The notes under the pieces: generated by a model | What the model was told of the DNA's origin: nothing | The model's input: the letters and a program-made list of their open reading frames with translations, nothing else | The model's database searches: none | Assembly (NCBI RefSeq): GCF_000471965.1 | Contig: NC_022550.1 | Coordinates: forward strand, 558,001 to 622,000 | Direction of reading: 5' to 3' | From: Blattabacterium sp. (Nauphoeta cinerea) | GTDB taxonomy: Bacteria > Bacteroidota > Bacteroidia > Flavobacteriales > Blattabacteriaceae | DNA: 64,000 nucleotides | In this document: in pieces, positions 42,320 through 46,273 of the stretch | Position numbering within the stretch: the first letter of the stretch is position 1 | Layout of the letters: each line of letters opens with the position of its first letter | Position numbers and translations under genes: made by a program

Positions 42320-43336
42320 CTATTTAAAAATAGAATAATCACTCAAGCTTACTTTTTTAGTTTTTTCTCCTATATATATTGAATGATTTCCTATTATTGA
42401 ATGTTTCAAATTCGCATATTGAACTATTGTATAATTTTGAATTAAAGATTTTTTAATATTACTATTTTTTATTTTTGAATATTCTCCTATTGAAACATAA
42501 GGACCTATAATACTATTTTCAATACTTGTATTTTTTCCTATTGAACAAGGTTTTATAATTAAACTATTTTTTAGAATAACTTTTTTATGAATTAATTCTG
42601 AATTTTGTGATTCTATAGATAGTAATTTTGAATTTGAAGAAATAGTTCTTTTTTTGTCTCCAAAATCCATCCATTCTTCAACTTGTTTGCTAATAAATTT
42701 TTCACCTTTTCTTCTCATATTTTCTAGAACAGACGTTAGTTGATATTCTTGTTCATTTTTAATATTATGATTTAATAAAAATTGCAATTCTTCCTTTAAA
42801 AGCAAACTATTTTTAAAATAATAAAATCCGACAATTGCAAGATTAGATATATGATTATTTGGTTTTTCTATAAAATGAGTGATCCTTCCTGAAGGATCAC
42901 ATTTTACGATTCCAAATAAATGAGGTTTTTTAACTTTTTTTGTCCATATAATATTATCATGAGTGATTTCTTTATCAAAAGAATTATGATAGAATAAAGA
43001 ATCAGAAAAAGCAACGATAATTGGTTCTCCTGTTAAAGATTTTTTAGCTTTGAACAAAGCGTCTGCAGTTCCAAGTGGAATAATTTGATAATATATAATT
43101 GGATTTATACTCATATCATGAGATAATTTAATTAATTGTTTTTCTATTTTTTCCCCGAAATTTCCTATAATAAAAACAATTTCTTGTATAGAAAAAACTT
43201 GAATAAGCTTAGATAAACTTTCCATTAATCTTTTTAAAATTGTTTTTCCAGCAACATATATCAGTGGTTTAGGAGTATTTAAAGTATGAGGAAGAAGACG
43301 TGATCCTTTTCCCGCCATAGGGATTATAATTTTCAT
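42320..43336 (-). CDS. Sugar-phosphate nucleotidyltransferase (NTP_transferase plus left-handed beta-helix)
   Basis: Activates a sugar phosphate to NDP-sugar for envelope glycans. N-terminal IPMAGKGSRLLPHTLNTPKPL is the nucleotide-binding signature; VAFSDSLFYH supplies the metal Asp. Hexapeptide-type repeats occur in the last 80 residues (SIENSIIGPYVSIGEYSKI). 338 residues. In Flavobacteriia this gene commonly sits with dut and a flippase, as here. The specific sugar (glucose-1-P or similar) is not determined. Confidence 0.83.
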   Translation of the reverse strand: MKIIIPMAGKGSRLLPHTLNTPKPLIYVAGKTILKRLMESLSKLIQVFSIQEIVFIIGNFGEKIEKQLIKLSHDMSINPIIYYQIIPLGTADALFKAKKSLTGEPIIVAFSDSLFYHNSFDKEITHDNIIWTKKVKKPHLFGIVKCDPSGRITHFIEKPNNHISNLAIVGFYYFKNSLLLKEELQFLLNHNIKNEQEYQLTSVLENMRRKGEKFISKQVEEWMDFGDKKRTISSNSKLLSIESQNSELIHKKVILKNSLIIKPCSIGKNTSIENSIIGPYVSIGEYSKIKNSNIKKSLIQNYTIVQYANLKHSIIGNHSIYIGEKTKKVSLSDYSIFK

Positions 43337-43353: not shown

Positions 43354-43740
43354 TTATATTCCAGTACTTCCGAAACTGTTACTTCCTCTTATACTTCTAC
43401 TTAGAATTGAACATTTTTCCCATTTTATTTTAACACCTTCGATAAGATCGAATATTCCTAATTCATCATTAGGTTCAATCATTATATTTTTAAAAAAAAC
43501 GTTGATGACAATTATTTGTATTTCATTATACAATGTATATTTTTTATTCTTTATGTTTTTTGTGATATGAATTATACAAATAGATTCTATAAATTTTTTA
43601 ATCAAAGAAAAAGAATGTCTAGTATTTTTAGGAGTTTTAATAAGAATCCCCGTTGAAATTAATTTTCTTTCCAAAAATTTAATAGAAACAGATTCTTTTA
43701 TGTTAGCGATCAAAGTTAATCTACATATTTTTTTACACAA
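43354..43740 (-). CDS. dut: Degenerate dUTP diphosphatase-like ORF, probably a pseudogene
   Basis: dUTPase remnant. The C-terminal motif V is kept (RGSNSFGSTG, residues 118-127) and ERKLISTGILIKTP, EIQIIVIN and IEPNDE align with the beta barrel. The catalytic motifs are gone: AGxDLxA reads CRLTLIAN, the RSG/RSS motif reads SLIKK, and the GxIDxDYRGE loop with its catalytic Asp reads KNKKYTLYNE. 128 residues versus about 145. There is no ATG; the frame opens with TTG, and the N-terminal strand is missing next to the flippase stop. Either a recent pseudogene or a non-enzymatic derivative. Confidence 0.7.
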   Translation of the reverse strand: MCKKICRLTLIANIKESVSIKFLERKLISTGILIKTPKNTRHSFSLIKKFIESICIIHITKNIKNKKYTLYNEIQIIVINVFFKNIMIEPNDELGIFDLIEGVKIKWEKCSILSRSIRGSNSFGSTGI

Positions 43741-43750
43741 AATATTATTT

Positions 43751-45205
43751 TTATTTGATTAGGTTCATCAATCTTTTTTTCTCTAATAAAAAAATAGTTA
43801 TCATATATAAAAACTGTAAAAATAAATTCAATAGTACTTTTTTTTTCATCATAAAAACAATAAAAAGTGCAAATAAAAAATGTATTATAATATTTCTTAT
43901 TTTTTTATTACAAAATTTAAAAAATTGTTTTTTACCCCAAATGTATAGAATTATCAACATAGACCCATAAGATATCAAAGTCCCCCAAGCAGGAATCATA
44001 AAACTATTATAAATAATAATAAAAATAATATTAAATAAAAAAGTGATTAATACTCCGATTAAAGATATATAAGTCCCAATAATAGGTTTATCTATAATTT
44101 TGTAAAAAATAGATAAATTAGTGTAAACTCCTAAAAAAAGATTCCCCATCATTATTATAGGAATAATGGAAATAGCTGTATGATATTTTTTATCAATTAA
44201 AAATTTCATAAAAATATTAATATTTCCACATATTAATACATAAAAAATTAATCCCAATAAAACAAATATATAAGTGATTTCTTCATAATAATATATTGCA
44301 TCAGAATCTCTAGATTTTTTAAAAAAAAAAGGTTCAATCCCTAATCTAAAAATTCTGATATATATACTCATGAAAGCAGCTATTTTGTAACAAGCAGAAT
44401 AAGATCCATTAATTTCATCTGAAACCCATCTTTTAATCAAAATTTTATCCAAATTTTCATTAATAGAAAAAGAGATAGTTCCTAACATTATAGGAATACT
44501 ATAATTTAACATGTTTATAGCAAGAAGTTTGTTAAACTTTTTTATAGTTACTTTTTTTAAAATAATAGGGAGTATCAAAAATAAATTAATTAAAGAAGAA
44601 ATCATGTTTGCAAAAAATATATAACCGATTTTATCGGTAAAAGAGTCTACCCATTTAAAAATGAAAACAAAGAAAGTTTTTTGATAAATATTATTAGAAC
44701 AAGAGAATAAATATATTATCACAAACGATTGTATCAATATATTTGTAATATTTATTGTAGAATATTGTAAAGGTTTATCATTAGCACGAAACCAAGCCAT
44801 AGGAAGAATACAAATTGTATCGAAGAATATGATTAAAAAAAACATCAAAAAATATTCTGGATGATTATAATATCCAGCAATGGATGATAAATATTTTACT
44901 AAATTTATAGATATTATTAAAAAAAAAGAACTTATAAGTAATTGTATTATAACTACTGTTGAAAAAACAATTTCTTGATTATAATTTTTTTTATATAAAA
45001 ATCTAAAGTAAGTGTTTTCTAATCCAAAAGAAAGAAATCCTATGACCATAAAAGACAATGCATACATATCTGTATAAAGAGAAAATTCTTCTCTTTTAAA
45101 AAAAAGAGTAAAAAATTTTAAAAAAGCATAATTAACAATTCTAGGAAATATGAATCCTATAGAATATATAATTGTTTGTATTGTTAATTTTTTGTACAAA
45201 ATCAA
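43751..45205 (-). CDS. Oligosaccharide/polysaccharide flippase (MATE-MurJ-Wzx superfamily)
   Basis: Multi-spanning membrane protein with 12-14 hydrophobic helices, 484 residues. The N-terminal LYKKLTIQTIIYSIGFIFPRIVNY resembles flavobacterial polysaccharide biosynthesis flippases. Likely moves a lipid-linked sugar across the inner membrane. The frame has no ATG at the expected N-terminus; TTG at 45205 gives the best alignment. It precedes the dut remnant and the nucleotidyltransferase. A lipid II flippase role is possible but untested. Confidence 0.82.
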   Translation of the reverse strand: MILYKKLTIQTIIYSIGFIFPRIVNYAFLKFFTLFFKREEFSLYTDMYALSFMVIGFLSFGLENTYFRFLYKKNYNQEIVFSTVVIIQLLISSFFLIISINLVKYLSSIAGYYNHPEYFLMFFLIIFFDTICILPMAWFRANDKPLQYSTINITNILIQSFVIIYLFSCSNNIYQKTFFVFIFKWVDSFTDKIGYIFFANMISSLINLFLILPIILKKVTIKKFNKLLAINMLNYSIPIMLGTISFSINENLDKILIKRWVSDEINGSYSACYKIAAFMSIYIRIFRLGIEPFFFKKSRDSDAIYYYEEITYIFVLLGLIFYVLICGNINIFMKFLIDKKYHTAISIIPIIMMGNLFLGVYTNLSIFYKIIDKPIIGTYISLIGVLITFLFNIIFIIIYNSFMIPAWGTLISYGSMLIILYIWGKKQFFKFCNKKIRNIIIHFLFALFIVFMMKKKVLLNLFLQFLYMITIFLLEKKRLMNLIK

Positions 45206-45303: not shown

Positions 45304-45969
45304 ATGAATTCTCATAAAAACTCAAAAGAGTTTATACTATATGCGATAAAACATAAAAAAATTAGTAGTTTAACAATTGATGAATATATTAAATTCATGA
45401 CTCCTTATATTGTGGAAGAAAGAAAATTAAATGTAGCCCAGATGGATGTATTTTCTCGTTTGATGATGGACCGAGTTATTTTTTTAGGAACCCCAATAGA
45501 AGATCAAGTATCCAATATAGTACAAGCTCAACTATTGTTTTTACAATCTGTAGATTCTACGAAGGATATACAAATATACATTAATTCTCCAGGAGGAGAT
45601 GTTTATGCTGGATTAGGTATATATGATACCATGCAAATTGTAGAACCAGATGTAGCAACTATTTGTACTGGAATGGCTGCATCCATGTCTGCTGTATTGC
45701 TTTGTGCAGGAGAAAAAATAAAAGATCGGCAAAAACATTCTAGAGTTATGATTCATCAACCTATAGGAGGAACGCAAGGTCAAGCTTCAGATATTGAAAT
45801 CACAGTTCGTGAGATTTTAAAATTGAAAAAAGAACTTTATGAGATAATATCAAAACATTCTGGATTACCTATTGAAAAAATAGAAAAAGATTCAGATAGG
45901 GATTATTGGATGACTTCTATAGAAGCTAAAGAGTATGGTATGATAGACGAAGTGTTAGAAGGGAAAAAA

Positions 45970-45972
<3 letters not shown>
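45304..45972 (+). CDS. clpP: ATP-dependent Clp protease proteolytic subunit
   Basis: Serine peptidase forming the tetradecameric chamber that pairs with ClpC/ClpX. Catalytic Ser in CTGMAASMSAVLL, His in HSRVMIHQPIGG and Asp in KDSDRDYWMT are intact. 222 residues, full length with a short N-terminal extension. It is not adjacent to clpC, which is frameshifted at about 22.8 kb. Its TGA stop lies inside the 3' end of the opposite-strand tRNA-Arg gene. Confidence 0.96.
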
Positions 45973-46043
<71 letters not shown>

Positions 46044-46047
46044 TTAA

Positions 46048-46122
46048 TCGGGGTAGCAGGATTTGAACCTACGATCTCCTGGTCCCAAACCAGGCGCGAT
46101 AACCAAACTACGCTATACCCCG
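46048..46122 (-). tRNA. tRNA-Pro (anticodon TGG)
   Basis: Acceptor CGGGGTA pairs with TACCCCG; anticodon stem CCTGG/CCAGG with loop TTTGGGA gives TGG, which can read all four Pro codons. T-loop GGTTCAAATCC, discriminator A, no encoded CCA. It lies 4 bp from tRNA-Arg. Confidence 0.95.
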
Positions 46123-46125
46123 TTG

Positions 46126-46210
46126 CGGAGAATGTGGGATTCGAACCCACGCGGTATTTACATACCGACAGTTTAGCAAACTGTTCCGTTAACCACTCCG
46201 GCAACTCTCC
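46126..46210 (-). tRNA. tRNA-Ser (anticodon GCT)
   Basis: Acceptor GGAGAGT pairs with ATTCTCC including one G-T pair; anticodon stem ACAGT/ACTGT with loop TTGCTAA gives GCT for AGC/AGT. A long variable arm (GGTATGTAAATACC) and discriminator G are typical of tRNA-Ser. It is first in the three-tRNA run on the minus strand. Confidence 0.95.
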
Positions 46211-46273
46211 CAAAAAAATATACAAACAAATCTAAAGCAGATCTATAAAATAAACAAATAATTCTATATTAAA

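Follow-up and report, generated by a model that had tools for sequence, protein, structure and literature searches.

A chromosomal dUTPase-like gene that keeps motif V and a plasmid dut that lacks it: a probable two-gene dUTPase in Blattabacterium

Why would a gene for dUTPase, an essential enzyme that cleans up DNA precursors, lose four of its five catalytic motifs and still be kept as an open frame? The question is raised by an open reading frame at 43,354–43,740 (minus strand) of a 64,000-nucleotide stretch of DNA (the window) from the 626.6-kb, two-contig genome of Blattabacterium sp. of Nauphoeta cinerea. It encodes a 128-amino acid dUTPase-like protein (here, C), which we propose as the motif-V-donating subunit of a two-gene dUTPase. 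A sequence-only reading of this locus had instead taken it to reflect loss of dUTPase, tolerable only if uracil-DNA glycosylase is also gone or dUTP is removed in another way. In a trimeric dUTPase, all three subunits ordinarily contribute to each active site: one provides motifs I, II and IV, another motif III, and the remaining one the motif V arm (PMC12524310, PMC4827122). The arm crosses to a remote site, and removal of motif V lowers kcat ~720-fold (PMC4827122); dUTPases without motif V were "nearly inactive" in all species investigated (PMC5519681).

The frame of C was confirmed to start with TTG and to be free of stops over 128 codons, and TTG or GTG starts near the same position are usual among its orthologues. 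The protein ends in ...SIRGSNSFGSTGI, i.e. RGSNSFGSTGI, and its conserved part is the P-loop-like C-terminal arm of motif V (RGSNSFGSTG; 43,360–43,389, minus strand, as are all sites in C). In the alignment, NDELGIF replaces GDRIAQ at the former motif IV site (43,450–43,470), and RPRSGLA is replaced at the former motif II site (43,597–43,620). The former motif III site (43,522–43,566) has lost the catalytic Asp and Tyr and is now a variable, lysine-rich loop. Motif I persists as a remnant (43,699–43,719; LTLIANI versus AGxDLRANI) without the Mg-binding Asp, and the first strand is deleted. The sequence-only reading had also reported this strand as missing, and rightly so, since the upstream flippase gene ends 11 nt from the start of C and therefore no upstream frame can restore it. 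A frame correction restoring motifs I–III was likewise considered and rejected, because the frame as it stands can be aligned along the entire canonical body.

Pfam PF00692 gives no match to C, and the NCBIfam dut models match it weakly, over full length. With PRK00601, residues 8–127 align to positions 30–148 of 150 (E=1e-8), far under the curated cut-off. A profile built exclusively from 12 chromosomal proteins matched solved trimeric dUTPases over the full profile length (7n56, E=9e-12). Judged by these profile matches, the homology of C to dUTPases is not due to chance. A structural model predicted with canonical dUTPase rows in the alignment is all-beta (pLDDT 78.8, with 57 for the last block), and dUTPases head its PDB matches (Z up to 9.4 over 101 residues, with an rmsd of 2.9). 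The model predicted from two chromosomal rows only is meaningless (pLDDT 30); sequence homology is thus the main ground for assigning the fold. C appears to keep the dUTPase jelly-roll fold, in a model that leans on the canonical rows; whole-chain homology and this predicted fold are what C has in common with the trimeric dUTPase family.

The position of C points to its origin. The gene lies between a polysaccharide flippase gene upstream (43,751–45,205, minus strand; Pfam Polysacc_synt) and a sugar nucleotidyltransferase gene downstream (42,320–43,336, minus strand; Pfam NTP_transferase). An intact, five-motif dut adjoins the same flippase in 30 of 30 Flavobacteriales outgroup loci, and the nucleotidyltransferase is also next to dut in 22 of these 30. 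This shared neighbourhood, marked by the flippase, identifies C as the ancestral dut locus, vertically inherited. Elsewhere in the window, two open reading frames with GFEPT-like repeats (45,969–46,235, plus strand; 45,998–46,225, minus strand) do not encode proteins; they coincide with three tRNA genes (Arg, Pro, Ser) at 45,970–46,210 on the minus strand.

A second dut, for which the sequence-only reading had thought a search worthwhile, was found in the same genome by profile search (E=7e-28, profile positions 4–117 of 129). It is located outside the window on a 3,674-base contig, a 3.7-kb plasmid (G000:C2:3001-3423, minus strand), and encodes a 136-amino acid Dut (here, P) that has motifs I–IV and lacks precisely motif V. 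The motifs read SSGMDLRA, RPRSGLA, NNPGTIDSDYRGEI and NGDKIAQI, with a motif III of the dUTPase type (GTIDSDYRGE), and the protein ends in ...KIKWDLKLKIIKKNN, stopping before the arm. Dut matches outside Blattabacterium reach profile position 128–129 among the matches listed, which are the better-scoring part from a sample of 246 Flavobacteriales genomes. Simple loss of dUTPase is therefore refuted, because a dut with motifs I–IV is present on the plasmid.

Plasmid-type dut genes passing the Pfam cut-off were detected in 12 of the 49 genus genomes, nine of them on a 3- to 4-kb contig and the other three inserted into the chromosome at ~139 kb. Together with the copies of BPLAN and CPUbr, 14 plasmid-type copies were compared, and motif V is absent from all 14 proteins, the three chromosome-integrated ones included. 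A six-frame scan of the plasmid-type dut records for motif-V-like patterns gave no match to a dut arm; the possibility that the motif is hidden in another frame downstream was rejected, as the scan yielded only unrelated glycine-rich matches. The plasmid gene is annotated as "dUTP diphosphatase" in symbionts of Periplaneta, Blattella, Mastotermes, Cryptocercus and others, and the annotated symbiont plasmids examined in full also carry nrdB and genes for a VRR-NUC protein and a DUF1599 protein. The end of the plasmid dut falls on, or a few bases from, the end of a convergent DUF1599-like gene (L071 3001–3004, and other plasmids), and the lost arm of P may have been overwritten by such gene crowding. 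Some plasmids also contain tandem repeats that are open in several frames (L076 1–390, L077 3147–3717), possibly replication or partition elements. Where the plasmid genes are chromosomal (G017, G016 and G002; L080, L081 and L082), the whole block of lipoprotein-like, dut, DUF1599-like, VRR-NUC-like and nrdB genes is integrated, beside a fructose-bisphosphatase-like gene.

Motif retention in the two proteins was measured in one alignment of 25 outgroup Flavobacteriales Duts, 14 plasmid proteins and 45 chromosomal proteins, in which columns were scored if conserved in ≥90% of the outgroup. The kept fractions, plasmid versus chromosome, are 0.85 versus 0.27 for motif I, 0.96 versus 0.07 for motif II, 0.89 versus 0.01 for motif III and 0.95 versus 0.11 for motif IV. 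For motif V the values are 0.00 versus 0.78. P thus keeps 85–96% of the conserved columns in motifs I–IV and C only 1–27%, which upholds the sequence-only observation that these motifs are gone from C. Across the 45 sequences of the chromosomal family, retention is 0–2% for the catalytic residues D(I), S(II), D(III) and Q(IV), and 0–7% for the wider set of Asp I, Ser II, Asp/Tyr III and Gln IV. The retention of motif V in C is equally clear, as R, F, G, S and G of the RGxxxFGSTG arm are kept in 45 of 45 proteins and are present too in four frameshifted copies; this arm occurs in 0 of 14 P proteins. No 10-residue window of C is more strongly conserved than motif V. The five arm residues are invariant while several synonymous codons are in use, so the constraint acts on the protein. 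The last-strand Trp lies 11 residues from the motif V Arg in 42 of the 44 C proteins that have the Trp, and the same spacing holds for all 22 outgroup Duts that could be scored; the reach of the arm is therefore preserved. These results demonstrate that each motif is kept by exactly one of the two proteins.

If the two genes depend on each other, both are expected in every genome, and 37 of the 49 assemblies lack a plasmid-type dut. nrdB is missing from exactly the same 37 assemblies, 30 of which have nrdA. It is implausible for a genome to encode a ribonucleotide reductase that lacks its small subunit, and these assemblies most likely just miss an unassembled plasmid. nrdA (PF02867) was unmatched in eight genomes (G010, G011, G015, G018, G023, G024, G037 and G040), reflecting either ribonucleotide reductase loss or a search artefact; G010 has a plasmid nrdB. 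The strain BPAA is listed as being without a plasmid in Table 1 of PMC6039017.

These observations suggest that Blattabacterium makes a two-gene dUTPase in which P and C co-assemble as a heterotrimer. We give this reading a probability of roughly two in three, with assembly, donation of the arm in trans, stoichiometry and activity drawn from known dUTPase structure. P would contribute a canonical dUTPase core with motifs I–IV that stops before the C-terminal arm, and C would contribute the fold and the motif V arm, its own motifs I–IV being lost. Among the possible trimers, P2C1 alone would yield a complete site, exactly one per trimer, with motifs I, II and IV from one P, motif III from the other P and motif V from C. 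P homotrimers are predicted to be nearly inactive and C homotrimers inactive, and in PC2 the P site would be without a motif III from P. One good site is expected to be enough, as hybrid trimers work site by site and one or two dead sites leave the good ones active (PMC4827122). The scheme requires a crossed arm. In a few viral enzymes and in that of Plasmodium, the arm acts at the site for which the same subunit supplies motif III (PMC12524310); with this geometry every combination of P and C would fail, and the usual crossed arm is therefore a prediction of the model. The deletion of the first strand in C might make the trimer pack less firmly.

A gene with so many catalytic residues gone could be a pseudogene in decay, with an open frame and a motif V that have lasted by chance. 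C does evolve fast, with a very long branch in the tree, and four copies (G001, G021, G033 and G046) are frameshifted. Against decay, the chromosomal gene is present in 49 of 49 genus genomes and its frame is open in 45, across ~125 A+T-rich codons; when neutral substitution by itself was simulated for one pair with 25 differences, a stop arose in 75–81% of the runs. The pooled dN/dS of the C body without the arm is 0.42 across seven independent close pairs, below all 300 neutral simulations with A+T-rich base composition at kappa 2, 4 and 8, and the five arm residues stay invariant with synonymous changes. C is thus under purifying selection; the pseudogene reading is refuted by the open-frame, dN/dS and arm-invariance tests unless the alignment is wrong, and we regard it as very improbable. 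The four breaks all fall at a run of 9–12 A in the lysine loop at the former motif III site (the G046 copy has further disruptions), and the motif V half remains open and conserved in each. G001 and G046 have a plasmid dut beside a frameshifted C, and so need slippage, a functional C-terminal fragment or a sequencing error; in another ant endosymbiont, frameshifts at such tracts were proposed to be corrected by transcriptional slippage (PMC3017870). The explanation offered by the sequence-only reading, that dUTPase loss is tolerated since ung is gone, fares worse still and is hardly credible. ung is indeed absent from this genome in a UDG-family search. However, all 49 genomes carry this form of the chromosomal gene, and 37 of them have at least a UDG match, so that lack of ung does not act as the permitting condition; the plasmid dut with motifs I–IV speaks against it as well. 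Matches are absent from 11 other genus genomes, and several others have only fragments; uracil-DNA glycosylase has been lost repeatedly in the genus.

P could instead act by itself, as a slow dUTPase without motif V that meets the needs of a slow-growing symbiont, with C having an unrelated or regulatory role as a dUTPase-fold binding protein that uses its arm. Arm-less enzymes do keep a nonzero residual activity, Mycobacterium smegmatis with an arm-truncated Dut is viable, and non-enzymatic roles of dUTPases are known (PMC12524310). However, M. smegmatis had a second dUTPase activity (Dcd:dut), and none was found in this genome. dCTP deaminase (TIGR02274) gave no match above cut-off. Bacterial dCTP deaminase and Dcd:dut belong to the same superfamily and have a core that works without motif V (PMC4827122); P differs from them in its dUTPase-type motif III and was found as a Dut, being the only protein to score against the deaminase model (36 bits against a cut-off of 92.8). 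A dimeric dUTPase (PF08761), raised in the sequence-only reading together with MazG, was unmatched in this genome, a weakly informative absence because the control matches only 1 of 14 genomes. thyA is present, and with neither a dimeric dUTPase nor a dCTP deaminase matched, dUTPase is expected to matter for dUMP supply. Motif V contacts the nucleotide phosphate, and an unrelated role of C would not predict that its one remaining motif is the one missing from P, as is seen in every genome with both; the arm linker length of C is also conserved. Sufficiency of P alone is thus unlikely. A further arrangement keeps the trans arm and dispenses with the mixed core: C, as homotrimer, monomer or C-terminal fragment, could dock its arm onto P3 homotrimers in the manner of an activator peptide or a prozyme. 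The absence of the N-terminal strand from C and the open, conserved motif V half in the four frameshifted genomes would suit such docking. We nonetheless consider it doubtful, since the body of C, and not the arm alone, is under selection, and since C keeps fold-determining positions (the ERxLIxTG strand and an invariant Asn), as expected of a packed trimer subunit.

For the P–C heterotrimer, the following history is proposed. An extra, full dut would have arisen on, or been acquired by, the plasmid; each copy would then have lost what the other supplied, and the pair would have become locked in before the genus diversified. In the tree, the plasmid copies form one clade (98/99) and the chromosomal copies another (100/100). 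Plasmid dut records come from widely separated hosts (Mastotermes, Cryptocercus, Periplaneta, Blattella and Blaberus), and C is found in every genus genome; the arrangement therefore predates the sampled diversity of the genus. One plasmid is discordant: the Dut protein of the Blaberus giganteus plasmid NC_017925 (L072, G045:C2) has the same sequence as that of two Cryptocercus plasmids (dN 0, dS 0.06–0.11), and the B. giganteus chromosomal dut-like gene groups elsewhere, which points either to a plasmid that moved between lineages or to a wrongly assigned record.

An inactive paralogue required by its catalytic subunit is known from the trypanosomatid prozymes, which act largely by allostery. 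C resembles these as a dead paralogue proposed to be necessary for its partner, but would differ in donating a catalytic motif itself. With the homotrimeric, all-beta dUTPases (Dut; PF00692, NF001862/TIGR00576), the Blattabacterium proteins share the fold, the ancestral locus and the arm. Those enzymes carry five motifs on one gene, whereas here motifs I–IV are on the plasmid and motif V on the chromosome, i.e. on two replicons. The monomeric dUTPases of herpesviruses likewise reflect duplication and complementary motif loss with one active site left, but their copies are fused, with motif III on one domain and the remaining four motifs on the other (PMC12524310); in Blattabacterium it is motif V that is set apart, and the copies are separate, unlinked genes. 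Non-identical subunits with independent sites, of which one good site suffices, are known from the pseudo-heterotrimer of Drosophila virilis and from engineered hybrid human trimers (PMC12524310, PMC4827122). Unlike the proposed P2C1, the former is covalent with nearly identical domains, and the latter are artificial and covalently linked. No paper combining Blattabacterium and dUTPase was found in the open literature searched, and the open papers searched likewise gave no account of a natural dUTPase divided between two genes. The part of PMC6039017 concerned with the plasmids notes dut and nrdB on them, and the missing arm and the chromosomal partner go unmentioned there.

In annotations, the plasmid gene passes for a complete dUTPase, and the chromosomal gene could easily be dismissed as a remnant. 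If the two-gene reading is true, this would be the first natural dUTPase with its five catalytic motifs distributed over two unlinked genes, as far as the searched literature shows, and a case in which a homotrimer became an obligate heterotrimer by complementary degeneration. It would provide a clean, testable example of an enzyme with shared active sites being ratcheted to higher complexity in a small asexual symbiont. The arrangement would also give a concrete reason for plasmid retention: on balance, and with somewhat less assurance than for the two-gene enzyme as such, we favor the view that an obligate P2C1 hetero-dUTPase, fixed in the common ancestor of Blattabacterium, helps explain why the 3- to 4-kb plasmid, with its nrdB, has been kept or integrated rather than lost.
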